Assembly: GCA_963575745.1 (NCBI GenBank)
Contig: CAUYUJ010017838.1
Span: 256,501-320,500 of the forward strand
From: Prorocentrum cordatum
Lineage: Eukaryota > Sar > Dinophyceae > Prorocentrales > Prorocentraceae
Direction: 5' to 3'
DNA: 64,000 nucleotides
A program made the position numbers and the translations under genes. Below, piece after piece: positions 6,169-59,095 of this stretch; within the stretch, counting starts at the first letter, position 1, and every line of letters begins with the position of its first letter. The notes beneath the pieces were generated by a model. That model had not been told where the DNA came from and made no database searches. It saw nothing but the letters and a program-made list of their open reading frames with translations.

Positions 6169-7906
6169 TCTCGTGACTGACGCAGCACGCCCCATCATCC
6201 ATCGGCACTTGGGCCTCCTCCCCGTACGCCGCGTCACGCCTCTCCCGCTGGCCCTCCCCCCCTCCCCGGTTCCTCCCCCGATCGCCCACCTCCCTGACCT
6301 CCCTCCCCTGCTCCCCCCCTCTCCCACTCGCCGTCCCCTTCACTCATCCTCCCTTTCCCTCGCCTTCTCCGTCTCCCCACGCCCTCCTCGCCTCTCCCCC
6401 TGGCCCTCCCGCCCCCCCGATCTCCTCCCCGCTGCCCGACGGGGCGCGGAAGAGGGGGGTGGGAGGGGGAATGGAGGCGGGGTCGAACAATCGCTGGCGC
6501 GCTAACCGCTCAGGCCTGCGGGTCACTTGCGAGGGTCTACGGAACTGTCCAACGGCGGCGTCAACTCCTGGACGGTCGCGCACCCGTCATGCCCGAACGC
6601 ACCGCGACTGCCGTCTCCATCGCCCCACCACGGGTAAGGGAACCACCGCCACTTGCCGACGCTGCCGGTGGCACGCTTCCTGTTCCACCACCAGTCGAAG
6701 CTGTTCGCGTGCAGCCACTCGTGGACCTCGTCATCGTATTTCTCCAGGAAGACTGCAGGATCGCGCGCCAAGACAAAGAGCTGGCCTGCATCAAACAGCC
6801 AGCTCAGCGTCGCTGGACTTCCAACCACCGCCCACTCGTACTTGCCATTAACGATGGGGCCGAGCCTGTACACCCAATAGTCACCTTCAAAATCAGGAGG
6901 CGAAATTGTTTCGTTGCCCCGGAGGAACTTCTGAAAGCTCAGCTTCTTCTGGCCTACTGCTTCGGTAGCTTTGGCCTGGCCCCAGATCTTCGTGACGCGG
7001 CCATCAAGTCTGATTCCCTGGTTAAGTACATCAATCGTTGTCCCATCGGCGTTCAGAGAGTAGTCTGTTGAGGTGCAGAGGTCATGGGGTCCAGCGTTGC
7101 CGAACGTCAAGATCGTGCTGGAAATACTGCCGTACATCTGGTACCATCGGCCCAAGAAAGCCTCGGTCTGAAGTTCCGTCACGGTGTCGAGCTTGCTCAA
7201 CTGCGACTCAGCAGTTTCGGATGTCTCCTCTCCTGTGATTTTGACCCTAGCACCTGCAGTCAGGCCAAACAGCAGCACTGGCGGAAGGAGCCGAGTCATT
7301 GCGAAGCAGGTGTTCGTCAAACAATTGGGATCCAGACTAGAGTTGGCAATTACCACTGTGCCCATATGGCTGAAGAAATGGTAGGGGGGTCGGGGAAGCG
7401 GGCGTTGCGTACCCGTGACCTCCCGAAGAGGCCGAACACCCTGGCATCTGGAATCGCGGTTGGTCATACATGTTCTCTGCGTCCGAAAAGAATGCTGGCG
7501 GCATGCAACCAACACCTGCCTACGGGTCCGTAGGAACTGCCCGATGGCCCCAGCGAAAGTCACTGGACCCAGAACCTCGACAAAAAACCAGGGCCGAGCA
7601 GTCTATCCTTGGTCAAAACTGCACTGCAAAGCCTTCTGGGCCGTCCGGAGGCGATCTCAGGGACCTCTTGGGCAGTATTGGGTTGCCGGGGACCCGAGAG
7701 ATCGAGGACGCAACAATGAATCAAACAAAATGAGAAAAACTACTTATGTGTTCTTCTAGAGGCCATTGGCAGGCTCTCGAGGCGTCTTGTGGGCCTCCAG
7801 AGTGGGTATGGGGGTATGTTAGGGATCTTGGGGGGCATCTTCGGGGGAAAGTGCCTTCTCATTGGCCCCTCGTGGGGCACTATATTGGGGGGCTCGGAGG
7901 CCGTTC
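6169..7906. repeat. 1738-bp tandem duplication, unit 1
   Basis: Unit 1 of a direct tandem duplication; every position maps to unit 2 by adding 1738. I found only two substitutions between the units (6309 T versus 8047 C; 7279 T versus 9017 C). The second is synonymous in the lipocalin. The unit holds the complete lipocalin ORF plus about 350 bp 3' and about 600 bp 5' of it (minus-strand sense). The right boundary is at GGAGGCCGT/TC followed by TCGTGACTG. Confidence 0.95.
6523..7299 (-). CDS. Secreted lipocalin-like protein, copy 1
   Basis: 258 aa from the ATG at 7299, chosen because it gives a signal peptide (MTRLLPPVLLFGLTAGA). The same frame runs upstream to an ATG at 7563, but those residues look like leader or untranslated sequence. 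Lipocalin features, in order: the GxW motif FLGRWYQMY (residues 48-56); a Blc/apolipoprotein-D-like block DYSLNADGTTIDVLNQG (79-95); strands GDYWVYRLGP (139-148), YEWAVVGSP (154-162) and LFVLARDP (174-181); then a Trp-rich tail (FDWWWNRKR, WRWFPYPWWG). Lipocalins bind small hydrophobic ligands; a secretory-pathway or extracellular location is inferred from the signal peptide. The ORF has no intron. The protein is longer than a minimal lipocalin because of the tail. Confidence 0.85.
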   Translation of the reverse strand: MTRLLPPVLLFGLTAGARVKITGEETSETAESQLSKLDTVTELQTEAFLGRWYQMYGSISSTILTFGNAGPHDLCTSTDYSLNADGTTIDVLNQGIRLDGRVTKIWGQAKATEAVGQKKLSFQKFLRGNETISPPDFEGDYWVYRLGPIVNGKYEWAVVGSPATLSWLFDAGQLFVLARDPAVFLEKYDDEVHEWLHANSFDWWWNRKRATGSVGKWRWFPYPWWGDGDGSRGAFGHDGCATVQELTPPLDSSVDPRK

Positions 7907-9644
7907 TCTCGTGACTGACGCAGCACGCCCCATCATCCATCGGCACTTGGGCCTCCTCCCCGTACGCCGCGTCACGCCTCTCCCGCTGGCCCTCCCCCCC
8001 TCCCCGGTTCCTCCCCCGATCGCCCACCTCCCTGACCTCCCTCCCCCGCTCCCCCCCTCTCCCACTCGCCGTCCCCTTCACTCATCCTCCCTTTCCCTCG
8101 CCTTCTCCGTCTCCCCACGCCCTCCTCGCCTCTCCCCCTGGCCCTCCCGCCCCCCCGATCTCCTCCCCGCTGCCCGACGGGGCGCGGAAGAGGGGGGTGG
8201 GAGGGGGAATGGAGGCGGGGTCGAACAATCGCTGGCGCGCTAACCGCTCAGGCCTGCGGGTCACTTGCGAGGGTCTACGGAACTGTCCAACGGCGGCGTC
8301 AACTCCTGGACGGTCGCGCACCCGTCATGCCCGAACGCACCGCGACTGCCGTCTCCATCGCCCCACCACGGGTAAGGGAACCACCGCCACTTGCCGACGC
8401 TGCCGGTGGCACGCTTCCTGTTCCACCACCAGTCGAAGCTGTTCGCGTGCAGCCACTCGTGGACCTCGTCATCGTATTTCTCCAGGAAGACTGCAGGATC
8501 GCGCGCCAAGACAAAGAGCTGGCCTGCATCAAACAGCCAGCTCAGCGTCGCTGGACTTCCAACCACCGCCCACTCGTACTTGCCATTAACGATGGGGCCG
8601 AGCCTGTACACCCAATAGTCACCTTCAAAATCAGGAGGCGAAATTGTTTCGTTGCCCCGGAGGAACTTCTGAAAGCTCAGCTTCTTCTGGCCTACTGCTT
8701 CGGTAGCTTTGGCCTGGCCCCAGATCTTCGTGACGCGGCCATCAAGTCTGATTCCCTGGTTAAGTACATCAATCGTTGTCCCATCGGCGTTCAGAGAGTA
8801 GTCTGTTGAGGTGCAGAGGTCATGGGGTCCAGCGTTGCCGAACGTCAAGATCGTGCTGGAAATACTGCCGTACATCTGGTACCATCGGCCCAAGAAAGCC
8901 TCGGTCTGAAGTTCCGTCACGGTGTCGAGCTTGCTCAACTGCGACTCAGCAGTTTCGGATGTCTCCTCTCCTGTGATTTTGACCCTAGCACCTGCAGTCA
9001 GGCCAAACAGCAGCACCGGCGGAAGGAGCCGAGTCATTGCGAAGCAGGTGTTCGTCAAACAATTGGGATCCAGACTAGAGTTGGCAATTACCACTGTGCC
9101 CATATGGCTGAAGAAATGGTAGGGGGGTCGGGGAAGCGGGCGTTGCGTACCCGTGACCTCCCGAAGAGGCCGAACACCCTGGCATCTGGAATCGCGGTTG
9201 GTCATACATGTTCTCTGCGTCCGAAAAGAATGCTGGCGGCATGCAACCAACACCTGCCTACGGGTCCGTAGGAACTGCCCGATGGCCCCAGCGAAAGTCA
9301 CTGGACCCAGAACCTCGACAAAAAACCAGGGCCGAGCAGTCTATCCTTGGTCAAAACTGCACTGCAAAGCCTTCTGGGCCGTCCGGAGGCGATCTCAGGG
9401 ACCTCTTGGGCAGTATTGGGTTGCCGGGGACCCGAGAGATCGAGGACGCAACAATGAATCAAACAAAATGAGAAAAACTACTTATGTGTTCTTCTAGAGG
9501 CCATTGGCAGGCTCTCGAGGCGTCTTGTGGGCCTCCAGAGTGGGTATGGGGGTATGTTAGGGATCTTGGGGGGCATCTTCGGGGGAAAGTGCCTTCTCAT
9601 TGGCCCCTCGTGGGGCACTATATTGGGGGGCTCGGAGGCCGTCT
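7907..9644. repeat. 1738-bp tandem duplication, unit 2
   Basis: Second unit of the duplication, in the same orientation. After about 9642 the sequence departs from unit 1 (GTCTCAAGAACC here, GTTCTCTCGTG at the unit junction). Near identity indicates a very recent event or continuing homogenisation. An assembly duplication is less likely because the units differ at two sites. Confidence 0.95.
8261..9037 (-). CDS. Secreted lipocalin-like protein, copy 2
   Basis: Encodes the same 258 residues as copy 1 (ATG at 9037; signal peptide, GxW motif and Trp-rich tail as there). The only coding difference seen is a silent CCA to CCG proline codon near the start. The whole 5' flank within the unit is duplicated too, so both copies should carry the same local regulatory sequence. 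Head-to-tail identical copies are a common way for dinoflagellates to raise gene dosage. Confidence 0.85.
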   Translation of the reverse strand: MTRLLPPVLLFGLTAGARVKITGEETSETAESQLSKLDTVTELQTEAFLGRWYQMYGSISSTILTFGNAGPHDLCTSTDYSLNADGTTIDVLNQGIRLDGRVTKIWGQAKATEAVGQKKLSFQKFLRGNETISPPDFEGDYWVYRLGPIVNGKYEWAVVGSPATLSWLFDAGQLFVLARDPAVFLEKYDDEVHEWLHANSFDWWWNRKRATGSVGKWRWFPYPWWGDGDGSRGAFGHDGCATVQELTPPLDSSVDPRK

Positions 9645-34466: not shown

Positions 34467-34488
34467 CTTGAGCCAAAATGGCTACAGA
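34467..34488 (-). other. DinoSL relict (one change), 5' end of a retroposed unit
   Basis: The minus strand carries the 22-nt leader with one substitution near the 5' end (CTGTAGCC instead of CCGTAGCC) and the intact core GTAGCCATTTTGGCTCAAG. It is followed by CGCTCGC and the ATG at 34459, not by a GT donor, so it is a retroposed leader and not an SL RNA gene. The base before it is the end of a CCT tract. Confidence 0.85.
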
Positions 34489-43396: not shown

Positions 43397-44158
43397 TGAG
43401 CGGGGTAGAGAGGGATCTGCGCCATGGTAAGGGATGGGAGGGAGGGGTAGGATGTCAATATGATCGAGCGCACCTACTTTCTCCTCCCCTTCCCCCTCCC
43501 CCTCCTCCTCCTACTCCTCCTCCTCTCTTCTCCTCCTCCTCCTACTACATCCTCCTCCTCCCTCTCCTCCCTCCTCCTCCTCCTCCTCCTCCTCCCCTCC
43601 TCCACCTCCTCCACAAGTGCTCAATATGTATACTACTCTCCATCTTCCCCTGATGACGGCCTGGGAGTCTCCGACCCCCCCGCGTACTGTTTTTTTACAC
43701 ACAGGTTTCCCCGGAGTTGGGTTTTCGCCCTGCATTTGTTTCAAAATGCTGCTCTCGCTGAGGCGCCGGCCTCATTTTCGGGCCCCGCTCGTTCCGAATC
43801 GTGCTCCCGCTGCAGCGCTGGCCTCATTTCCGTGCTTCCGCTCGTTCCGAATCGTGCTCCCGCTGCAGCGCTGGCCTCATTTCCGCGCTTCCGCTCGTTT
43901 CGACTCCTGCTCCCGCTGCAGCGCTGGCGTCATTTCCCGTGCCATGCCACGGCATGCACTGCAATGCTAGGTTGATGCTACGCTTTGCGGTGCTCTTCTA
44001 CGCCATGCCATGCCGTGCTCTACAATGCATCGCGTACCCATCGTTGCCCTGCTCGACATCCGACAGAGCGGGTAGACAGGGGATCTGCGCCATGGTAAGG
44101 GATGGGAGGGAGGGGTAGGATGTCAGATATGACGCGAGCGCACCTAGCTTGTCCTCCT
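43397..44158 (+). repeat. ~660-bp higher-order repeat, units 1 and start of 2
   Basis: A boundary segment (AGCGGGGTAGAGAGGGATC, then GCCATGGTAAGGGATGGGAG) occurs at 43397, 44064 and 52124. Each is followed by a CCT tract, then ACAAGTRCTCAATATG and a conserved ~500-bp body. The body holds three ~60-bp subunits (CGTGCTCCCGCTGCAGCGCT, with TCATTTCCGTGCTTCCGCTC) at 43796-43945 and a CATGCC-rich segment. No gene seen. Confidence 0.9.
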
Positions 44159-44232
44159 CCCCCTCCCTCCCCCTCCCCCTCCCTCCTCCTCCTCCTCCTC
44201 CTCCTCCTCCTCCTCCTCCTCCTCCTCCTCCC
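44152..44232 (+). repeat. (CCT)n tract at the LINE 5' junction
   Basis: CCT/CTC triplets running directly into CCGTAGCCATTTTGG, the SL at the 5' end of the LINE. The matching tract resumes at 51237 after the element. Confidence 0.95.
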
Positions 44233-44253
44233 CCGTAGCCATTTTGGCTCAAG
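44233..44253 (+). other. DinoSL relict at the 5' end of the LINE
   Basis: 21 of 22 leader bases are present and perfect (core GTAGCCATTTTGGCTCAAG); only the variable first base is lost in the CCT tract. ATGCC follows directly, not a GT donor, so it is the processed leader of a trans-spliced mRNA. Confidence 0.95.
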
Positions 44254-44393
44254 ATGCCTAGTTCCACAGTGGAACAAGTGGATACCGCTAGTCCGCGGCC
44301 AGTGCCAGGGCTCTTGAGCCCGACAGCTTTGTTCAACTCTCCGTGTGCCTCCTGCAGCCCGCAGGTGAGCTTCCTCTGTTCCTCAGTTCGTCC

Positions 44394-45620
44394 ATGGCGC
44401 CCCCGCAGCAGCGCAGCGCCTATGTCAAGTGCTACTCCTGCTCGTACGCCTGGAACTACAAGACCAACCAGACGTGCTACTGGTGCAGCAAAGCCTTGGC
44501 GCCGTGGACAGATTCCCCGCCTCCAGTTCAAGGCGCCTGGGCGGCCCGCGCCAAGGCCGCAGCCCAGGCCGACTCCAGCTGCACCCAGCAGCCCAGCCCC
44601 GAGACTGGATGGGAACCGTGGTCATCATGGCCCAAGTCCCGCCGCCGCCGAGGCAACGGCAATGGCAAGAACCAAGAGGACGACTGGTGGGCCAACAAGA
44701 ACGACACCCCCAAGCTGCGCTCCGCAGAGGAGATCCTTGCGGAGCTCCAGGCGACCGCCCCCCACATCGACAAGGCAGCCATCGACGGTATCAAGTCGCA
44801 GATCCCGCCGCCCCAGCCGCAGAAGCCAGCCGACCTCAACGACATCTACAGCCGCGCCCAGGCCACGGAGCGCCGCTGCAAGAACAACCTGGAGAGGCTG
44901 CTCGAGAGCGAGCAAAAGGCGCTCAGCTGGTACACCGAGCGCAAGGCGGCGTCGGAGGAGGCCGCCTACAAGTTGGCAGGAGCCCAGGCCGAGGCTCAAG
45001 CCGCTCTCGATGCACTCCAAGTCGCTCGCAAGGGCGGCACTGCTACTCCCACGGCCTCGCAGCAGAACCCGACGTTCAACCTCACCAGCCTCCTCGAGGA
45101 CGGTGACATCTCCATCGAAGCGGGCTCGGCTTTCGATCTCCAAGGCCTTGACATCGACGACAGCGATCGCCAGGCATGGGAATCCCTTCAGCAGCGCTTC
45201 GCCACGGAGCTCAAGGCCAAGGTCACCGAGCTCTTCGGCAACACCGCCAGCCGCATCAGCCAGCTCCGCACAGAGGCCAGCACCATGCGCACGCGCTTCG
45301 CCGCCAAGCGACAGCGGTCCGACGAGGACGGTGACGCCCGTGAGGGAGGTGGATCACCGCCCGCCGCCTCGGCGGCAGCAGGCGAACCCCCAGCGGCAGC
45401 CGCAGCGGACGTTGATGGCTCTGCGGCCTCATCGACAGCGGCGCCAGGCGATGAGCCTCCCGCACCTGCTCCTTGCGCTGCTTCTGACGGCAGCTTCGTT
45501 GCACAGCCTGTACCAGCGATCAACAAGGACCCCGACCTCGAAGACAAGGCACAGAAGATGCTCAGCCAGATGCGCAAGCCCACCGCGACCGCCGCGGCTG
45601 GAGCGCAGCAGCCTCTTTAG
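44394..45620 (+). CDS. LINE ORF1: zinc-finger, coiled-coil protein
   Basis: 408 aa from MAPPQQRSAYVKCYSCSYAW. This ATG is preferred over the in-frame one at 44343 because the upstream 17 residues look like leader. Near the N-terminus, CYSC...CYWC (about residues 13-31) is a four-Cys finger resembling the RanBP2 type. A basic patch KSRRRRGNGNGKN follows (about 82-94), then a helical, probably coiled-coil segment (about 160-215: ERLLESEQKALSWYTERKAA onward), and an Ala/Pro-rich, acidic C-terminal third. LINE ORF1 proteins bind RNA and chaperone the RNP; that role is inferred from position, finger and coiled coil. ORF1 ends 91 nt before the ORF2 ATG. Confidence 0.75.
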   Translation: MAPPQQRSAYVKCYSCSYAWNYKTNQTCYWCSKALAPWTDSPPPVQGAWAARAKAAAQADSSCTQQPSPETGWEPWSSWPKSRRRRGNGNGKNQEDDWWANKNDTPKLRSAEEILAELQATAPHIDKAAIDGIKSQIPPPQPQKPADLNDIYSRAQATERRCKNNLERLLESEQKALSWYTERKAASEEAAYKLAGAQAEAQAALDALQVARKGGTATPTASQQNPTFNLTSLLEDGDISIEAGSAFDLQGLDIDDSDRQAWESLQQRFATELKAKVTELFGNTASRISQLRTEASTMRTRFAAKRQRSDEDGDAREGGGSPPAASAAAGEPPAAAAADVDGSAASSTAAPGDEPPAPAPCAASDGSFVAQPVPAINKDPDLEDKAQKMLSQMRKPTATAAAGAQQPL

Positions 45621-45711
45621 CCGACTACTACCCGACCCTGGACGGAATGGTGAGACGGGACGTATACCGTCAGAGACCAAGTACTACGACAACCCACCGA
45701 TCATCAACACA

Positions 45712-48700
45712 ATGGACGCAGTCCTCGACCCGCTCGACGAGCTGGCCGAGTTGGACGCCCACATCGATTTCGCAGCCACAGCTCAGTACGCTACCGCCCC
45801 GCCCGAGACGCTGTCCTCGGTTGGGGGCGATGAGGCGGCACAGCCCGTCGACACAGTGACATGGGACCCAGGGCAGCCGCAGCGTGCTGCGCGAGCCGAC
45901 CCTGATGCCGCTCCGCCCGAGACGCTGTCCTCGGTAGGGAGCGATGAGACGGCCCAAGCTGTCGCCAAGCATTTGGTTCAGGACCCAGGGGGGGCGTTGC
46001 CAACGGCACACCCTGATGCCGCCCCGCCCAAGACGCAGTCCTTGGTAGGGGGCGATGAGATCGCGAAAGCTATCGACTCGACCTCTGTGAAAGGCCCATG
46101 GAAGCCCAGCAGCCCGAGACCCGACCCCACACCCGTCTACCAGGGCGAAGGCCCTACGAGCCCCACGCCGTCAGATCACTCCCTGTTCTTCTCCAACATT
46201 ACTCAGTGGGGGCCACAGTCGGAGAAATGGCTGGCAGGACCAGGCAAACAATATCAGATGGTGGCATTGGTTGAAACACACATCTCTCACGGTAAGGCCC
46301 CTCTCACCTACGACAAGCTAGCAGCGGATGGTTGGAGGATATCATCGACTACTGCCACGCCGACCAGCAGATCCGACGGAGGCAACACGGGTGGCGAGAT
46401 TATCCTCTCCAGGTACCATGTCCAGGCCACAACCTTCAACCACCTCCGCGACCTGGCCATCTCCCAGCGCAGGCCCGACCCGTTCCGAGGCTTCACGCCC
46501 ATGGTGTGGCACAGACGCTCTGGCAACCTGGTTGTTATTGCAGCGTATCTGGAACCCCGCAGGCAGATCGAGGGTGCAGTGCACGATAAGCTACTCTCGC
46601 TGGGGGCCTTCGTCACTATGCTCACTGACCCGTGGATCATCCTCGCCGATTGGAATATGACTCCTGAGCAGCTCGCGGCGACAGAGTGGCCCGCCAAATG
46701 GAATGCCACCATCGTGCGAGCGCCTGGATCTGCCACGTGCGACAAGGGCCAGGGACTCACGCTCGACTTCGCATTGGTCAAGACTGGCATCGAGCACACC
46801 ATCTCCATTCGCCAGTGCCCCACCGTCCCCTGGGCCACCCACGTGGGCCTCGAAGTTCGAGCAGGCAGTGCAGACCCCTGGTGGTATCAGACGATCCATA
46901 CCCCCAGGGCTTTCCCCACAGTGGACAGACCCAGGATCCCACCCGACCCCAACAACAAGTCCGCCATCAAGAGACGTAAAACAGCAGAAGCTCGAGCAGC
47001 ACGCCTACGCGAGCTACCTCCCGAACTCCAACAAGCAGCAGCACAACTCCAGCCACAAGACGAGCCCGCAGCACAGGAGCCTATCTCTTACGCTATCCCG
47101 TCGGACCTCTGGGAGGAGCAATGGCTGCAAGCAGTACCCACACGTTGTAAGCAGCCCCACGCGCACTTCGTGTGCACCCACTGGGTGCACGAAGCCGACG
47201 ACCTCAACCTCAAGTACGCCAAATGGGTCACGGCGCTCGAGAACACCATGATCAGCCACCACCAGATCGACCCCAAGGAAGCCGCTGCTTTCACAGGCCG
47301 TGGCCAAGGCTACCAATTGTCCTGGAAGAAGACGGCCGCCGCCCCAGGCCGAGTTCACGTACACGACCCTCAGTCGGAATGGTGGGCAATCACGCTCACC
47401 CTCATCAAGCGCTACGCTGCGCTTCACGACAAGCCCAAGCACACTGCGCTCATGCAGCAGCAGGCCTCCATCATCCAGCAGCGAGCGGACCACTTCAACA
47501 CTCACTTTCACGACCTCCAGTTCGAGAAGGACGAGGACACCATCTTCCGCTGGTTTGCACTCGTCTGGGCCCCGCACTTGGACAACGAGGACACCGACGA
47601 CTTGGTCACTATTACTGCTACTTGGGCCTCCAGAGCGCTTGCTGCCGCCCTCGCTAAGTCCAAGAGGGCTTACGGTGCTTGGCTCGCCAAGCAATGGAAA
47701 CACCGCCCTGGGGTACTACACGCCCATGTCAAGCCAGCGCCCGTGCGTCACATCGAGGCCTACACGACCAATCTGACCATCGCCGACCCCACCGTTATCA
47801 TGGACAGCAAGAAGCAACAATGGCAACAAGTATGGCAGGCCACCGAGACCCCCGACGACATCCTACAGGCGCTGTCAAAGGCCAAGGCAGCAGCCGCTCG
47901 CCAACCGCTCGAGCCCATCACAGCCGAGATCGTACACCGCTTTCACGGCCGCATGCCACCCAGTAAAGCACATGGAGTTGACGCCCTTGGACCTCGCGAC
48001 CTCCATCGACTACCAGAACCAGCAGTCGAAGCCTATGCGGATATCCTCAACGCTGTAGAGCAAGCAGGCATTTGGCCACTACAAATCTCAGGCACTATTG
48101 CAGCCCTAGCAGCCAAGAAGTCTGGAGGCGACAGGGTTCTCGGCATGCTACCTCACATGGCCAGACTCTGGTCTCGCATCAGGTCGACTGCATCTACATC
48201 CTGGACCCAAGGCCTGGACGACTTTTGGACTACAGCCATCAAAGGCTCCTCAGCTCTCCAGGCCGCCCTACACAGGGCCTTGTTAGACGAGACAGCCTCA
48301 GCTCTTGGCATACAGTCAGCCACATTGCTATTAGACATCCAGAAGTTCTACGACAATATCAAGCTCGCCAACCTCATTCTGGTCGGCCTCAACTGCGGCT
48401 TTCCCCCCATCATTCTACTTCTGGAGGTGCAGCTATACCTGGCGCCCAGATTCTTGCGCAGTCGACAATGGGTGAGTATGCCTATCTTCGCCTCCAAAGG
48501 CATCATCGCAGGCTCCCCGCATGGCACGACCTTGGCACGACTCATAGTACTTCCTATTCTTCGACAAGCCCAAGCTCAGGCAGAGCTGGCCCAGATGTGG
48601 ACCTTCGTAGACGACACTGTCCTTCGAGTCGAAGGAGTCCTACGCGCACTACAGAAGCACCTCCCCCGTGCCGCCAAGACGCTCTGCGACGGTCTAAAGG

Positions 48701-50895
48701 AGTTCGAGCTGCCCATCTCTGACAAGACGGTCCTCATCGGCTCCACCCCCAAGGTCCGCAAATCGCTAGCCAAGAAGTTGCGGCAGTACGACATCCCTGT
48801 CACAGCGACCGCCACGGCTGTCGACCTCGGAGTTGACGCGGCCGCGGCTACTCGACGGGTACAAGCCAAAGCCAGGAAGCGACAGAGCTCAGCCGCAGCT
48901 AGGTTTCGCAAGATACACCGACTACGGAGCACTGCACAGCAGGCTCGAATCTCGGCAGGGCTGTGGCGTACTGGCGCTCTCCCCGAAGGAGTCTTTGGTC
49001 ATCAGGTACACGGCCTTGCTCGACGCGCTCTACTACGATGGCGCCGTCAGGCCGCCATCGCGGCCACGGGGGCAGCAGCGGGCCGATGCCTCACCTCCCT
49101 CCTCGGCGCCACCTTCGACGGCATGGACCCAGGAGTTTCCCTAAGGATCGAATTCGTCGAGGCTCGGCTCCAGCACTGGATACGCCACCCGAGCACGCGC
49201 GCCAGGATCATCAGAGCATGGCCAAGGATCAGGACCACTTTGCTAGCCGCAGGCCCCAAGCTGTGGCGCAGGGTCAAGGGGCCCACTGGCGCGGCCATCG
49301 CGACCCTGCTGGAGGCCAGCTGGGAGCCGACCTCAGCTACCACGTGGAGGCGCACGAAGGACGGCTACATCGAGGAGTGGAACCTCCCCCCTGCCGATGA
49401 CCCTGACCTCCTCGACGCCGACATCCACACAGTATTGCAGGACCTCAGCGAGGATTTGCACAGGCTCCTCTGGACTCAGGCCGCTACGCACGACCATGGT
49501 GACACGCTGGCTGGAGGAGCGGACATGGTCACTATCCGCATCGAACAAAGGAGGCTCCTCGCAAACGGTGATTTCAGCGACTGGGCCCTCAACAACACCG
49601 TCATCAGTGGTGGACAATGGACCAGGGACCGCCTCCACAACGCGGGCTACCAGATCGACAAGAACTGTGACCGATGCAGCGCAGGAGTTCCTGAAACCCT
49701 GTTTCACCGAATGTGGCAGTGCGAGGCGAATGTGGGACCTGAGTTTGAGGCCAGTGACAAGTTACTACCGCGAGCCGTGGCGGGGGCCGATGCCGACCCT
49801 GCCCTGTGGCTCCGTGGCATCCCTTCTGTCGCTCTCACTACGCCCGCGTTCGAGCCATTGACTGGGAGGGACGGGTGGGAGTTTGTTGGTGCGGTGCGGG
49901 AGGGGTTGCCGTCGTGGGAAGGAGCTCGTAACGCTGAGGGCGAGTTGTTTCTTTTTGGCGACGGGTCTGGCGGCGCCTTTTCCGACGACGTCAGACGAAG
50001 ACGTGTTGGTTCTGGCCTCGCGGCCCTCCGATGGGACCCTCCCTCGGCCTCCTGGACCCTCCACGCGGGCCTCCTCGCCCCCCTCCCAGGCCCCCGCCAG
50101 ACCGTCCCAAGAGGCGAATTGCATGCGTTTTGCCTGGCACTGGAGACGTGCCAGCAGGATTTCACGTTTGTTACTGATCACCTAGCCCTGCAGCGCGGCT
50201 GGCAGAATGGCAGATGTCTCCGACCTGGCAGCCTCAGAGGCAAGAATAAGAATGGGGATCTCTGGCTGAGAATTCGGCACCTCGTGCAGGATCGATCTGG
50301 CGGCTGCTCTTCGGTCTCGGTGCTCTGGACCCCATCTCACGCCGATCCCCTCACTTTGAATGGTTTCCAAAAATTTATGGCCCTCGGCAACCAGCATGCC
50401 GATGAGCTCGCGGGAAGCGCGGCCCACAAGTCGGCCACCCTTGCCCTCCCGCCTGTCCCCAGGACCGATGAATACGACGCTATTGCAGCCATCGTCCGAC
50501 AGAGGGCTCGACTGATTTTACGTTCCTTAGGCAAGAATTCAGAGCCACGAGGACTGTGGCCAGACAGGCAATCCACCCAGGAGGCAGCCCCTCGCTCTCA
50601 GTTGCAGGCCGCGATCGCGGCTTCTCAGCACAAATTCGAGCGGTGTGCCGACAAATGGAGATGCCCAGCCTGCCTCATCATCGTTGACGCTCGCCAGGTT
50701 ATCCCAGCTGCCGCCACTGAGTGTGTGCCGCCTTGCCCCCTCCCCGAGTTCGCTGCGTGTGGAGAGGTGCTGTGGTCGAGGGGTCCCCGCGTGATCAGTG
50801 GCAAGTTGATCCACCCCTCCCACTTTTTGGCCACCATCCCCAAGTGGCATTGTCTTTTGTGTGAAGTGCGGCCATACGGCCACGCACCAGGTTAA
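45712..50895 (+). CDS. LINE ORF2: endonuclease, reverse transcriptase, RNase H
   Basis: 1727 aa from the ATG at 45712. The same frame is open back to 44254, but there it is only a shadow of ORF1. Residues about 25-110 hold three diverged copies of APPETLSSVGGDE. APE-type (EEP) endonuclease: catalytic Glu in VETHI (about 188), LADWN with Asp 313, LDFAL about 351-355, and THVGLE about 376, in the place of the usual terminal SDH. Reverse transcriptase: GVDALGPRDL (about 755), LLLDIQKFYDN with Asp 875, GIIAGSPHGTTLARL, and FVDD with Asp 967/968. Cys-His motif CDRCSAG...HRMWQC about 1320-1340. RNase H: GDGSGG Asp 1417, RGELHAF Glu 1469, VTDH Asp 1489, NQHADELAG Asp 1564. All catalytic positions are kept. 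A frameshift near 50857 truncates the extreme C-terminus. Confidence 0.88.
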   Translation: MDAVLDPLDELAELDAHIDFAATAQYATAPPETLSSVGGDEAAQPVDTVTWDPGQPQRAARADPDAAPPETLSSVGSDETAQAVAKHLVQDPGGALPTAHPDAAPPKTQSLVGGDEIAKAIDSTSVKGPWKPSSPRPDPTPVYQGEGPTSPTPSDHSLFFSNITQWGPQSEKWLAGPGKQYQMVALVETHISHGKAPLTYDKLAADGWRISSTTATPTSRSDGGNTGGEIILSRYHVQATTFNHLRDLAISQRRPDPFRGFTPMVWHRRSGNLVVIAAYLEPRRQIEGAVHDKLLSLGAFVTMLTDPWIILADWNMTPEQLAATEWPAKWNATIVRAPGSATCDKGQGLTLDFALVKTGIEHTISIRQCPTVPWATHVGLEVRAGSADPWWYQTIHTPRAFPTVDRPRIPPDPNNKSAIKRRKTAEARAARLRELPPELQQAAAQLQPQDEPAAQEPISYAIPSDLWEEQWLQAVPTRCKQPHAHFVCTHWVHEADDLNLKYAKWVTALENTMISHHQIDPKEAAAFTGRGQGYQLSWKKTAAAPGRVHVHDPQSEWWAITLTLIKRYAALHDKPKHTALMQQQASIIQQRADHFNTHFHDLQFEKDEDTIFRWFALVWAPHLDNEDTDDLVTITATWASRALAAALAKSKRAYGAWLAKQWKHRPGVLHAHVKPAPVRHIEAYTTNLTIADPTVIMDSKKQQWQQVWQATETPDDILQALSKAKAAAARQPLEPITAEIVHRFHGRMPPSKAHGVDALGPRDLHRLPEPAVEAYADILNAVEQAGIWPLQISGTIAALAAKKSGGDRVLGMLPHMARLWSRIRSTASTSWTQGLDDFWTTAIKGSSALQAALHRALLDETASALGIQSATLLLDIQKFYDNIKLANLILVGLNCGFPPIILLLEVQLYLAPRFLRSRQWVSMPIFASKGIIAGSPHGTTLARLIVLPILRQAQAQAELAQMWTFVDDTVLRVEGVLRALQKHLPRAAKTLCDGLKEFELPISDKTVLIGSTPKVRKSLAKKLRQYDIPVTATATAVDLGVDAAAATRRVQAKARKRQSSAAARFRKIHRLRSTAQQARISAGLWRTGALPEGVFGHQVHGLARRALLRWRRQAAIAATGAAAGRCLTSLLGATFDGMDPGVSLRIEFVEARLQHWIRHPSTRARIIRAWPRIRTTLLAAGPKLWRRVKGPTGAAIATLLEASWEPTSATTWRRTKDGYIEEWNLPPADDPDLLDADIHTVLQDLSEDLHRLLWTQAATHDHGDTLAGGADMVTIRIEQRRLLANGDFSDWALNNTVISGGQWTRDRLHNAGYQIDKNCDRCSAGVPETLFHRMWQCEANVGPEFEASDKLLPRAVAGADADPALWLRGIPSVALTTPAFEPLTGRDGWEFVGAVREGLPSWEGARNAEGELFLFGDGSGGAFSDDVRRRRVGSGLAALRWDPPSASWTLHAGLLAPLPGPRQTVPRGELHAFCLALETCQQDFTFVTDHLALQRGWQNGRCLRPGSLRGKNKNGDLWLRIRHLVQDRSGGCSSVSVLWTPSHADPLTLNGFQKFMALGNQHADELAGSAAHKSATLALPPVPRTDEYDAIAAIVRQRARLILRSLGKNSEPRGLWPDRQSTQEAAPRSQLQAAIAASQHKFERCADKWRCPACLIIVDARQVIPAAATECVPPCPLPEFAACGEVLWSRGPRVISGKLIHPSHFLATIPKWHCLLCEVRPYGHAPG

Positions 50896-51106
50896 AAGCC
50901 TTCTTTTGCCGTGCCCTCTCTCCCACCAAGTGGGAGAGCGCAGGGCCCTGGGACCCACTGGCAAAGGCCTCGAGAACCTCAGCAGGATCAGGCGAGGCCT
51001 CCACCCGTCCAGAGCGGGCCCCAGCAAGTCTGTGCTTGAGGCGTTGCACGTTTCGGCAGCCGAAGCCGCGATCGGTTCCTTCGCGGCGGGTGCCGCCACC
51101 GAGTAA
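50861..51106 (+). pseudogene. Out-of-frame C-terminal end of LINE ORF2
   Basis: Immediately after KWHCLL of ORF2, the +1 frame reads VKCGHTATHQVKSLLLPC and then about 60 more residues to a TAA at 51106. A CxxC-GHxA...L...C ending after HxLxC is the expected C-terminal zinc-binding tail, so one base near CTTTTGTGTG (50850-50862) was probably lost or gained. The ORF2 stop at 50893 is therefore likely secondary. Confidence 0.55.
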
Positions 51107-51236
51107 ATTGTGAGGCCAGGGGGGCCTGTCGCGGTGGGCCGTGGGATGTCGCCCCCCACGGCCCTCCGAGAAATACTGGATGGCCCCCCTGGCATCTCTG
51201 GGCTCGAACGGACTACGTCCGATTGTTCCACTCCGC

Positions 51237-51640
51237 TCCTCCTCCTCCTCCTCCTCCTCCTCCTCCTCCTCCTCCTCCTCCTCCTCCCTCCTCCGCCTCT
51301 TCCTCCTCCTCCTCCTCCGCCTCCTCCTTCTCCTCCTTCTCCTCCTCCTCCTCCTCCTCCTCCTCCCACATCCTCCTCCTCCCCTCTCGTCTCCTCTCCT
51401 CCTCCTGCTGCTCCTCCCTCCTCGTCCTGCTGCTGCTTGCTTCTGCTGGCTCCTCTCTCTCCCCCTCCGCCCTCCTACCGTGTGTGTGTGTCCTCCTCCT
51501 CCTCCTCCTCCTCCTCCTCCCGTCCTCCTCCCTCCTCCTCCTACTCCTCCGCCTCCTCCTCCTCCTCCTCCTTCCTCCTCCGTCCCCCCCTCCTCCTCCT
51601 CCTCCTCCTCCTCCCTCCGCCTCCTCCTCCTCCTCCTCCA
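51237..51640 (+). repeat. (CCT)n tract at the LINE 3' junction
   Basis: CCT/CTC triplets with CTG and TGTGTG interruptions (TGTG at 51481-51491). Continues into the repeat-unit body at ACAAGTACTCAATATG (51639). Confidence 0.95.
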
Positions 51641-52213
51641 CAAGTACTCAATATGTTATACCGTCTCCCTCTTCACCCTGATGTTCGGCCTGGGAGTCTC
51701 CTCTCCGACCCCGCGGGACTGTTTTTTTAACACACCAGTGTTTCCCGAGTTGGGTTTTCGCCCGCATTGTTTCAAAATGCTGCTCTCGCTGTAAAAGAAA
51801 AAAAAGAAATAATAAAAAGAGCGCGGGCCTCATTTTCGGGCCCCGCTCGTTCCGAATCGTGCTCCCGCTGCAGCGCTGGCCTCATTTCCGTGCTTCCGCT
51901 CGTTCCGAATCGTGCTCCCGCTGCAACGCTGGCCTCAGTTCCGTGCTTCCGCTCGTTTCGACTCCTGCTCCCGCTGCAGCGCTGGCGTCAGTTCCCGTGC
52001 CATGCCACGGCATGCACTGCAATGCTAGGTTGATACTACGCTTTGCGGTGCTCTTTTACGCCATGCCATGCCGTGCTCTACAATGCATCGCGTACTCATC
52101 GTTGCCCTGCTCGACATCCGACTGAGCGGGTAGAGAGGGGATCTGCCCCATGGTAAGGGATGGGAGGGAGGGGTAGGATGTCAGATATGACGCGAGCACA
52201 CCTAGCTTGTCCT
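51640..52213 (+). repeat. ~660-bp higher-order repeat, rest of unit 2 and start of unit 3
   Basis: Matches 43612-44158 over the whole body, including the 60-bp subunits. Differences: a short A-rich insertion (about 51790-51822, AAAAGAAAAAAAAGAAATAA) and scattered substitutions. The boundary segment of unit 3 starts at 52124. Confidence 0.9.
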
Positions 52214-53260
52214 CCTCCCCCTCCCCCTCCTCCTCCTCATCCTCCTCCTCCTCCTCCTCCTCCTCCTCCTCCTCATCCTCCTCCTCCTCCTCCTCCTCCT
52301 CCTCCCTCCCTCGCCTCCGCATCCGCCTCCCCGCCTCCGCCGCCTCCTCCTCCTCCTCTCCTCCTCCTCCCCCTCCTCCTCCTCCCCTCTCCTCCTACTC
52401 CTCCTCCTCCATCCCCTCCGCAATCCTCGTCCCTCCTCCTCCTGCCTCCTCGCTCCGTCCGCCGCCGCCGCCGCCGCCTCCTCCTCCCTCCTCCGCCTCC
52501 TCCTCCTCCTCCTCTCCTCCGCCTCCTCCGCCTCCTCCTCCGCCTCCTTCCTCCTGCATCCTCACCTCCTCCGCCTCCTCCGCCTCCTCCTCCTCCTCCT
52601 CCTTCCGGCCTCCTCCTCCTCACTCCTCCTCCTCCTCCTCCTCCTCACTCCCTCCGCCTCCTCTTCCTGTCCTCCTCTTCCTCCCCCTCTCCCTTCCTCC
52701 CTCCTCCCTCCTCCCCTCCTCCCTCCGCCCTCCGCCTCCTCCCTCCTCTCTCATATCCGCTCCTCCTCCCTCCTCCTCCTCAAACGCCTATACCCCGTCC
52801 TCCCTCCTTCCTCTCCCTCCTCCCTCCACCTCCCTCTCCCTCATCCCGTCCTCCCATCCTCCCTCCTCCCTCCTCCCTCCTCCCTCCTCCCATCCTCCCT
52901 CCTCCCTCCTGCCCCTTCCTCCCTCCTCCCTCCTCCCTCTCCCTCCTCCCGTTCCCCTCCTACCGTCCTTCCTCCCTCCGCCCCTCCTTCCCTCCTCCTC
53001 CCTTCCCCTCCTCCTCCTCCTCCTCCTCCCTCCGCCTCCTCCTCCTCCTGCCTCCTCCTCCTCCCACTCCTCCTCCGCCCCACGGCCTCCTCCTTCCTCC
53101 TCCTCACTTCTGCTCCTCCTCCTCATCCTCCTCTCCTCATCCTCCTCCTCCTCGTCCTGCTGCTCCTCCGCCCTCCTCCTCCTCCTCCTCCTACTCCTCC
53201 TCCTCCGCCTCATCCTCCTCCTCCTCATCCTCCTCCTCCTCCTGCTGCTCTTCAGCATAC
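52207..53260 (+). repeat. Kilobase-long degenerate (CCT)n tract
   Basis: About 1050 bp of CCT/CTC/CCG triplets, more degenerate toward the middle (TCCCTCCTCCC words at 52680-53000). Frames are Pro/Ser-rich by composition only. Confidence 0.95.
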
Positions 53261-57132: not shown

Positions 57133-57148
57133 ATGCAACGGGGCAGGA
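57133..57148. repeat. Target-site duplication, left copy
   Basis: ATGCAACGGGGCAGGA, identical to 59080-59095. It directly follows the A8 tract in minus-strand sense. Confidence 0.92.
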
Positions 57149-57156
57149 TTTTTTTT
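57149..57156 (-). other. Poly(A) remnant of the retrogene
   Basis: Eight T on the plus strand, i.e. A8 at the 3' end of the minus-strand transcript copy, exactly between the 3' UTR and the target-site duplication. Confidence 0.85.
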
Positions 57157-57519
57157 GGTGGGCACGTGCAGCGGCGGCGCCGCTCCCCGACTTCGCCCGA
57201 GAGCTCGCCCTCTCCGCGCTGGCCCTCCCGGGCGCCACCTGCGCGCCCTCGAGGAGGCGGCGCTGACCACAGCCAGAGAAGAGCACACCACCCGCCCATC
57301 GCGGCCCGATGTAAGCACGGCCGTGGCCTCGCCGCCTCTCGCGGCCCTTGCCGCTCAAGCGCCCGCAGGGCGGCCCCCTGGCCGAAACCCGCAGTCTCGA
57401 GCGGCGCGCCCGCCGCCGCCCATGCCGCTCGCGCCGCGGCACGCCACTTCTGGCCGCCGCGGCGCGGGCTGGGTCTCGAGCAGTCGTCGCCCCCGGGCCG
57501 CCAGAGCCAGCCAGCCCAG

Positions 57520-59004
57520 CTACCTGGCGGCGCACCCGCCCCGGGAACGGGATCTCGAGGTGGCCTGCCTCTTGGACCTCGTGGACCTCTGTGCATCCTT
57601 CGCGCCCTCGTCGGGATTCCACAGGGCAGTCGCCTCGGTCGGCTCCGAATGCTCGGTGTCGCAGCTGGCCGCCTTCAGCTCCTGGTCGTCACACGCAGCG
57701 CGGTCCCGCGTCAGCGAAGGCCAGTGCCAGAGTATCAAGGTGCAGACCATCGCCACCAGCACCAGCGCCGACAAAATCAGCAAAATAATTGTCCAGCTCT
57801 GCCTTCCCCCCTCTCCCTGGAGATTGTGAAATATAACTCCTGCGACCAATTGGAAGACTGTGCTTGAGATCAGACCGACCACATCCAGGAGTGCACTTGC
57901 GGTCGCGCAATCCTCGCCGAATGTCAATGGATACATGTTGAGGGTAACATAATACGTAAGACCACCACCAAAGGAGAGCAAGAAGAGGCACACCACAATC
58001 ACTATCGGCATGCTGACATTCACTGCCAAAATTCCTGGCGCCATCCCAGCATGCCAGACGGCCGCAAGAGCCATCAGCGCCCCCATCAGGCCCAGGGCCT
58101 GAAGAGACAGCTCGAAGGCGAACTTCCAGCGGCGCAGCCCCATGTTTGCATACACGGGCGCGGCCACCAAGAGGGCCGCTCCCAGCCCGGCAGGAAACGC
58201 GGCCGAGGCCATGCTGACGCCCGCGGCGTCGAGCTCGGTCGTGTCCTGCAACAACAGCGGCGCCAGCGAGTCCATTGACCCACACTGGGAGTACAGGCAT
58301 ACTGCCGCCAAGCTCGTGAGCGCCATGCCTGGGTCCAGCGCGATCACCGGCAGCCGGTCGAGCAGCCGGCCAGTCGGCCTCTCGGCCTGGCGCGCCCCGT
58401 TGGTGGCCCGCTCACCGTCCCTGTGCTCCCCGCTGGACGGCAAAAGCCACGCGGCGGCCACCGAGCCTGCGGCCATCGCAGCGGCGGTGAGCAGCGCGAC
58501 CTGCCTCCAGGGCAGCGCCTTCAGGAGCAGGCCCAGGCCCAGCTTGGAGCCGACCGCGCCCAGGCGCGAGGCCACGCCGAGGAGGGAGAAGCAGCCCACC
58601 CAGCGCTCCTGGTCAAAGTTCTGCTCGATCAGCTTGCAGGCCGAGAGCCACCCGCCAGCGGCGCAGAGCTGCAGGACTATGTAGCCTACCAGCGGCCCCA
58701 GCCGGCTGGGGACGGCGCCAAAGGCCGCTGCACCCAGCGCCATGAGCGGCATGGACACGAGCAGAAAGCGCCTGGCCCCGAACCTGTCGATGAGCGGGCC
58801 GCCGGCGAGCTTCCCGGCCGCGTTCAGGGCCGTGCCGAACGAACCGAGCACGCCGGCGAGCGCCGCGGAGAGGCCGAGCTCCCCGTCCTCGCGCATGGCC
58901 GCCAGACAGGCCCCAGGCATGGCGAGCACGAACTGCTCGCTCATCAGAGGCAGGCAGATCATCGCGTAGGCGAGGAGCCATGCCTGTCCCTTCGCGAAAT
59001 CCAT
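57520..59004 (-). CDS. MFS transporter retrogene
   Basis: 494 aa, intronless. The ATG at 59004 is 54 nt after the SL and is the first in the transcript copy. About twelve hydrophobic segments are visible, with a charged central loop (SSGEHRDGERATNGARQAER). The motif GKLAGGPLIDRFGARR (residues 64-79) matches the MFS loop 2-3 signature GxLaDrxGrkxxl. The C-terminal ~60 residues are hydrophilic and Ser/Arg-rich, probably cytosolic. The substrate is unknown. 3' UTR 57157-57519, then A8. The reading frame is complete with no disabling change, so it may still be functional if it is near a promoter; its own promoter should not have been copied. Confidence 0.85.
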   Translation of the reverse strand: MDFAKGQAWLLAYAMICLPLMSEQFVLAMPGACLAAMREDGELGLSAALAGVLGSFGTALNAAGKLAGGPLIDRFGARRFLLVSMPLMALGAAAFGAVPSRLGPLVGYIVLQLCAAGGWLSACKLIEQNFDQERWVGCFSLLGVASRLGAVGSKLGLGLLLKALPWRQVALLTAAAMAAGSVAAAWLLPSSGEHRDGERATNGARQAERPTGRLLDRLPVIALDPGMALTSLAAVCLYSQCGSMDSLAPLLLQDTTELDAAGVSMASAAFPAGLGAALLVAAPVYANMGLRRWKFAFELSLQALGLMGALMALAAVWHAGMAPGILAVNVSMPIVIVVCLFLLSFGGGLTYYVTLNMYPLTFGEDCATASALLDVVGLISSTVFQLVAGVIFHNLQGEGGRQSWTIILLILSALVLVAMVCTLILWHWPSLTRDRAACDDQELKAASCDTEHSEPTEATALWNPDEGAKDAQRSTRSKRQATSRSRSRGGCAAR

Positions 59005-59058
59005 GGCTCGTAGGAGGCCGCGCGCTGCCGCGGCGATCGCTTCGAGACGAAAACACGG

Positions 59059-59079
59059 CTTGAGCCAAAATGGCTACGG
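59059..59079 (-). other. DinoSL relict at the 5' end of the MFS retrogene
   Basis: Perfect leader on the minus strand (core GTAGCCATTTTGGCTCAAG). The variable first base at 59080 fits both the leader and the target-site duplication. The following sequence is CCGTGTTTT, not a splice donor. Confidence 0.95.
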
Positions 59080-59095
59080 ATGCAACGGGGCAGGA
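59080..59095. repeat. Target-site duplication, right copy
   Basis: ATGCAACGGGGCAGGA, identical to 57133-57148 and directly abutting the SL. The first base is shared with the variable leader position, so the duplication is 15 or 16 bp. Confidence 0.92.

Follow-up and report, generated by a model that had tools for sequence, protein, structure and literature searches.

Processed retrocopies made by mammalian L1 elements are intronless, end in an A tail and are bounded by duplications of 15-16 bp. L1 nicks the first strand at a T-rich TTTT^AA motif; target-site duplications in retrocopies made by target-primed reverse transcription (TPRT) range from about 7 to 20 bp, and integrases leave duplications of 4-6 bp.

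For dinoflagellates we rely, here and below, on the consulted portions of each paper cited. The dinoflagellate spliced leader (SL), DinoSL, is 22 nt long in full (DCCGUAG..., PMC6050394), and SL-tagged retrogenes, mRNA copies that carry this leader, are an already known kind of gene. According to the recycling model, the CCGTAG of a copied leader acts as a trans-splice acceptor, and stacked SL relicts have been described for recycled transcripts (PMC3229502). The route by which mRNAs re-enter dinoflagellate chromosomes is less clear, since a 2018 review regards the type of element as unknown, with a preference for LTR retrotransposons of the Ty1/copia type (PMC6050394). LINE-mediated insertion of RNA-virus genes has been argued from SL relicts, nearby LINEs and LINE abundance (PMC10235124), and both SL relicts and divergent LINEs are reported from Symbiodiniaceae (PMC8045281). 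In the consulted portions of these and related papers, the term 'target site duplication' is absent from PMC6050394, PMC12014239 and PMC11453091, 'target site' from PMC10235124 and PMC12014239, 'direct repeat' from PMC12014239, and 'spliced leader' from the SymbioLINE paper PMC5890265; within the literature searched, subscription papers apart, we found no description of duplications at dinoflagellate retrogenes or of SL-tagged LINEs.

Here we analyzed 64 kb of Prorocentrum cordatum DNA (the window, meaning the whole stretch), which has a G+C content of 61.4%; the mean of the published P. cordatum assembly is 59.7% (PMC10666404). The window contains a new case of an SL-tagged retrogene, an MFS transporter copy that reads, on the minus strand, TCCTGCCCCGTTGCAT, CCGTAGCCATTTTGGCTCAAG, a 54-nt leader, ATG to stop, a 363-nt 3' region, AAAAAAAA and again TCCTGCCCCGTTGCAT:

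59080..59095, minus strand: target-site duplication, 5'-side copy, identical to 57133-57148 over all 16 bp; its base 59080 is possibly nucleotide 1 of the SL
59059..59079, minus strand: DinoSL, 21 of 22 nt, 5' end of the copied mRNA, a perfect match; the 22nd nucleotide may be the T at 59080
59005..59058, minus strand: 5' untranslated leader of 54 nt, ending at the MFS ATG and beginning CCGTGTTTTCGTCTCGAAG
57520..59004, minus strand: uninterrupted MFS transporter ORF, 494 aa plus stop, an open frame matching Pfam MFS_1
57157..57519, minus strand: 3' untranslated region, GC 0.785 versus 0.566 in the left flank
57149..57156, minus strand: A8, poly(A) tail remnant, read as T8 on the forward strand and abutting the left repeat
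57133..57148, minus strand: target-site duplication, 3'-side copy, an exact match to 59080-59095

The positions given in the earlier note for the repeats, the DinoSL and the A8 proved exact when the window was re-examined. Its description of an intronless MFS ORF was likewise borne out, as the frame runs open for 494 codons with no internal stop and matches MFS_1 at E 4.8e-22. Third-position GC in this frame is 0.826, a simple Kyte-Doolittle scan finds 10 hydrophobic segments in the protein, and GC rises from 0.566 and 0.595 in the flanks to 0.66-0.79 within the unit. The two copies of ATGCAACGGGGCAGGA differ at no position, and the sole further match to this sequence within 3 mismatches in the window has 3. 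Because the full leader has 22 nt, its first nucleotide may be the T at 59080, which leaves a duplication of 15-16 bp. A second, eroded SL relict within the leader (CCGTGTTTTCGTCTCGAAG) was considered and is not claimed, its alignment (p = 0.1 in shuffles) not being significant. Like other dinoflagellate SL-tagged retrogenes, the MFS copy carries DinoSL, and it fits the enrichment of transmembrane transport among dinoflagellate retrogenes (PMC6050394); unlike those reported, it keeps both its tail and its target-site duplication.

SLs are common in this genome, and many dinoflagellate genes lack introns, so that an ordinary intronless gene might by chance have come to lie among an SL, an A-run and a repeat. 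We give this explanation next to no probability, because the SL, the A-run and the repeat are three independent features that abut base by base, and because the SL read backwards, used as a control pattern, has no match in 4.13 Gb, versus 14,218 perfect SLs in the assembly. The A8 at 57149-57156 is one of four A/T runs of at least 8 in the 64-kb window, and on the SL strand 20 SL loci of 10 kb each hold 6 A-runs of at least 8. From base composition, the chance of a 16/16 match at two fixed places is about 5e-10. Simple repeats spoil random-pair statistics for the duplication (63 identical among 2 million pairs), and we therefore used a cross-locus control, in which the MFS upstream flank was compared with the downstream DNA of 22 other SL loci. 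At its own locus the flank gives 16 bp, ending exactly at the A8, versus at most 10 bp in the 22 controls. Among the 23 SL loci put through this control, the duplication is clearly beyond its own controls in two, because most of the others sit in simple repeats; anchored repeats at most SL loci lie inside (CCT)n or (GGA)n, are indistinguishable from the control and were discarded as evidence.

The anatomy of the MFS locus very probably reflects the insertion of a mature, SL-capped and polyadenylated mRNA by non-LTR (LINE-type) TPRT. A duplication of 15-16 bp and an A8 lying directly against its 3' copy are both features by which LINE/TPRT retrocopies are recognized, and retroposition with a TPRT-type duplication is supported independently by two further loci described below, L031 through its parent gene and L036 through identical scars. 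In the proposed sequence of events, the MFS-transporter pre-mRNA would have been spliced, trans-spliced to the dinoflagellate leader and polyadenylated, and non-LTR retrotransposon machinery would then have taken over the mature mRNA. After a nick in one DNA strand, cDNA would have been begun at the tail from the nicked end and extended to the leader; a cut in the second strand 15-16 bp away would account for the duplication. The enzyme may have come from an A-tailed, SL-tagged LINE of the L036 kind. The resulting copy may be expressed. The CCGTAG in its copied leader could act as a trans-splice acceptor once more, and the upstream TTTTTTCTCTCTT could provide a pyrimidine tract.

In its lack of introns, its A tail and its 15-16 bp duplication the MFS copy resembles mammalian L1 processed retrocopies, from which it differs in the SL leader at its 5' end and in a nick without TTTT^AA. 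Read from the window sequence, the nick is GGCAGGA^GTGATAG, in which that motif is absent. Since this nick is not T-rich, the tail could not have annealed there as in L1, and since the strand ending in ...GGCAGGA^ cannot pair with poly(A), the enzyme would have another or a relaxed specificity. The remnant of the tail, A8, is short. Of the LINE-type TPRT proposed by the earlier note, the structural part stands (duplication, A8 and the same scars at L036); the nick is not of the L1 type, and the source of the enzyme is our proposal.

It has also to be considered that LTR-retrotransposon machinery of the Ty1/copia type, which the 2018 review favors while calling the element type unknown, made the cDNA in a virus-like particle, and that the cDNA was then joined to an LTR or inserted by integrase. 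At the MFS locus, nothing longer than the 16-mer brackets the unit, there is no LTR at the junction, and the tail meets the duplication directly. The duplication of 15-16 bp contrasts with the 4-6 bp of integrases, and a LINE in the same genome, L036, bears the same scars. We therefore consider LTR machinery very unlikely and retain LINE-type TPRT. Insertion scars can decide the element type, and here they are legible at three places, two gene copies and a LINE, each with an A-rich tail and a duplication of about 15-16 bp.

A genome search with the MFS protein (87 of 169 candidates scored; 4,128,499,153 bases in 21,875 contigs) identified the copy itself as the sole 100% match and no near-identical parent among the candidates scored. 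The next-best match is a paralog on contig C9677, in three separate pieces spread over about 11 kb (residues 224-273 at 50% identity, 267-353 at 63% with one in-frame TAG, and 346-465 at 52%). C10571 contributes a piece covering residues 7-64 (60%, with one TAA), and two further matches are weak, at 25-26%. Judged from these alignments, the MFS family is intron-bearing in this genome, and the copy has no introns; given that no near-identical parent was found, intron loss is demonstrated only against a 50-63% paralog. Nor did a protein database search find the parent among length-limited candidates (the best 7,999 by shared words), and the MFS-protein cluster has one member. The direct parent is thus missing: it may have been lost or replaced, or may lie in unassembled DNA. 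Dinoflagellate retrogenes usually lack a parent, only 6.4-9.8% being paired with one (PMC6050394).

The insertion had been described beforehand as recent. This claim was not supported, as there is no near-identical parent among the scored candidates of the assembly and the 53 unmutated scar bases bound the divergence of the MFS copy only to about 5.5% per site (95%). A single exact repeat pair and an intact SL are a weak clock, and recency is possible. A different history for the same scars is that an older retrogene was copied at the DNA level, as a segmental duplication, and carried them along from retroposition elsewhere. The whole-genome protein search, with 87 of 169 candidates scored, identified no second MFS copy, and neither MFS flank repeats at length in the window, where the longest other match is 52 bp. 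We hold such a DNA-level copy to be very unlikely as well, and continue to read the locus as a direct retroposition.

An intron-bearing parent, which the earlier note proposed to search for and which in the MFS case yielded only the 50-63% paralog, was found for a sister locus. L031, one of the 30 SL places fetched, has an SL, an intronless WD40 ORF (1.1e-41) and an A-rich end with a tail of A4-A6. Its putative duplication is an SL-anchored repeat of 15 bp when exact or 18 bp with one mismatch, and its flank holds related CCAAGAGG-type words. The genome search placed its parent on C13789, matching at 96% in residues 52-368 and at 91% in residues 18-66. In a 2.2-kb piece of the parent, the two exons are 98.3% (958 bp) and 97.5% (119 bp) identical to the copy and are separated by an intron of about 0.43 kb that the copy is without. 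Upstream of this exon pair parent and copy no longer match, which makes one or more additional introns likely. At the 3' end the match stops at ...AAGCCAAAA, where the parent goes on with genomic GAGG and the copy enters its tail. Neither an SL nor its 12-nt tail is found on the coding strand of the 2.2-kb piece; the parent's first exon lies further upstream, where an SL may be present. The 16 differences in the larger exon comprise 7 synonymous and 8 nonsynonymous ones and 1 after the stop. L031 is therefore a WD40 retrogene of the same process with an identified intron-bearing parent.

The third locus with such scars is itself a LINE. L036 is a 6.6-kb LINE with an SL, an A8 and a 15-bp duplication versus at most 10 bp in controls, scars equal to those of the MFS copy. 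It matches P0011, a protein with reverse transcriptase and endonuclease domains, at tblastn E 2e-11, and its Pfam matches to RNase_H (9e-5) and RVT_1 (3.1e-3) are both below the Pfam cut-offs; its RNase-H ORF has no relatives at E 0.001. L048 was rejected as a further scar case: its 5' end is similar, its tail is AAA and its repeat measures 13 bp, but the flank is of the (GGA)n kind and the control rises to 19. The window holds a LINE of its own about 6 kb from the MFS retrogene, an example of SL-tagged retroposition machinery:

44233..51237, plus strand: LINE with a perfect SL at its 5' end (SL 44233-44253), RVT_1 1.8e-8, between (CCT)n-CCC tracts and without an A tail
44292..45620, plus strand: ORF1-like frame of this LINE, 442 aa, an open frame with no Pfam match
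45649..50895, plus strand: ORF2 of this LINE (endonuclease-like, reverse transcriptase, RNase-H-like), part of a longer frame 44239-50895

Below the Pfam cut-offs, this element also matches Exo_endo_phos (6e-4), zf-RVT (2.6e-4) and RNase_H (1.5e-3), and its middle has no match in PDB at E 0.1. Its end repeat is not beyond controls. Relatives on other P. cordatum contigs show 90-91% identity over 65-67% of the stretch searched. The LINE is bracketed by two copies of a roughly 790-bp repeat that are 88.6% identical (43481-44234 and 51509-52293); we rejected this pair as LTRs, the LINE already ending at 51237. From the few elements at hand, there seem to be two sorts of LINE, one inserted in microsatellites without an A tail and one A-tailed like L036, and it is the A-tailed sort that the scars of the MFS retrogene match. 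Like dinoflagellate LINEs such as SymbioLINE (PMC5890265), the LINEs here are non-LTR retrotransposons with reverse transcriptase; unlike SymbioLINE they have a 5' DinoSL, in some cases joined by a second relict, and (CCT)n or (GGA)n surrounds many of them. Insertion into simple repeats is shared with microsatellite-targeting non-LTR elements (PMC4640811, on restriction-like endonucleases), whereas the endonucleases of the LINEs here match the endonuclease/exonuclease/phosphatase (APE) family PF03372.

Such LINEs account for much of what follows an SL in this genome. We fetched 30 SL places and read 20 of them 9.7 kb downstream. These 20 were not drawn at random but are the ones that come first in listing order behind a place at a contig end, and L037 and L038 overlap. 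LINE coding DNA lies on the SL strand in 13 of the 20, one of them weakly: it was detected by tblastn in L033, L036, L040, L043, L048, L049 and L051, by Pfam with RVT_1 above cut-off in L035, L037, L039 and L041, by 5.7 kb of DNA similarity to L035 in L047, and weakly in L045 (Exo_endo_phos 9.4e-4, below cut-off). No LINE coding DNA was detected in L032, L034, L038, L042, L044, L046 and L050, the frames of L050 having been searched by tblastn only. Most SLs in this 20-place sample are thus LINE 5' ends, which cautions against equating numbers of SL relicts with numbers of retrogenes. A T precedes CCGTAG in 27 of the 30 places, as it should if copying usually takes in the whole 22-nt leader, and a second SL relict stands directly behind the first, clearly (p at most 0.006), in 9 of the 30. 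A 40-nt polypurine/polypyrimidine stretch directly precedes the SL in 22 of 30, versus 2.8% of positions in downstream control DNA (20 loci) and 4.9% in the window. Across the genome's reverse strand, with one match per SL in the portion listed, TCCTCC lies within 10 nt in 2,555 of 7,017 and GGAGGA in 923 of 7,017. Unlike most SL places, the MFS copy lies in ordinary DNA, and its scars are readable for that reason.

Collectively, these observations make it reasonably likely that DinoSL is here mainly a LINE 5' end. LINE RNAs would be trans-spliced like mRNAs, each insertion would restore a complete 22-nt 5' end, re-splicing at the CCGTAG of an old leader would leave stacked relicts, and many families would target (CCT)n/(GGA)n; with their SL and tail, mRNAs would be ideal mimics of LINE RNA. 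That mRNAs share leader and tail with LINE RNA would explain the abundance of full-length dinoflagellate retrogenes. If this is true, SL relicts cannot be counted as retrogenes unless the DNA that follows them is checked. The larger picture, in which SL-tagged LINEs would provide the machinery as well as most SL relicts, merits following up, and the 14,218 perfect SLs of a single assembly make the question of the element type testable genome-wide.

Several minor observations came from the same SL sites. At L042, repeats on both sides are part of a minisatellite and were set aside. At L038 (G000:C1, SL at 893877) the SL unit spans about 1.66 kb, contains a frame of 269 aa and is inserted in (CCT)n directly after the 3' end of the L037 LINE. 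L026 (G000:C2, SL at 2043938) is a candidate retrogene in ordinary DNA, where an SL precedes a hydrophobic-looking frame of 203 aa and no duplication is detectable in 1.5 kb. Among the IMG/VR matches listed, the exact SL occurs on one contig, L001 (2746-2913), in two copies 126 bp apart, one of them shortly before an ATG; the viral-contig scan was uninformative. Within the window, a third SL (34467-34487, minus strand, 20/21) lies behind (CCT)n and ahead of a frame of about 200 aa; 785 bp further on, a CCT-variant repeat of 23 bp, marginal against a control maximum of 21, hints at a short inserted unit. The window also contains about 1 kb of almost pure pyrimidine, mostly CCT (52200-53260), and, at 6169-9642, a 1,738-bp unit in two tandem copies that are 99% alike.
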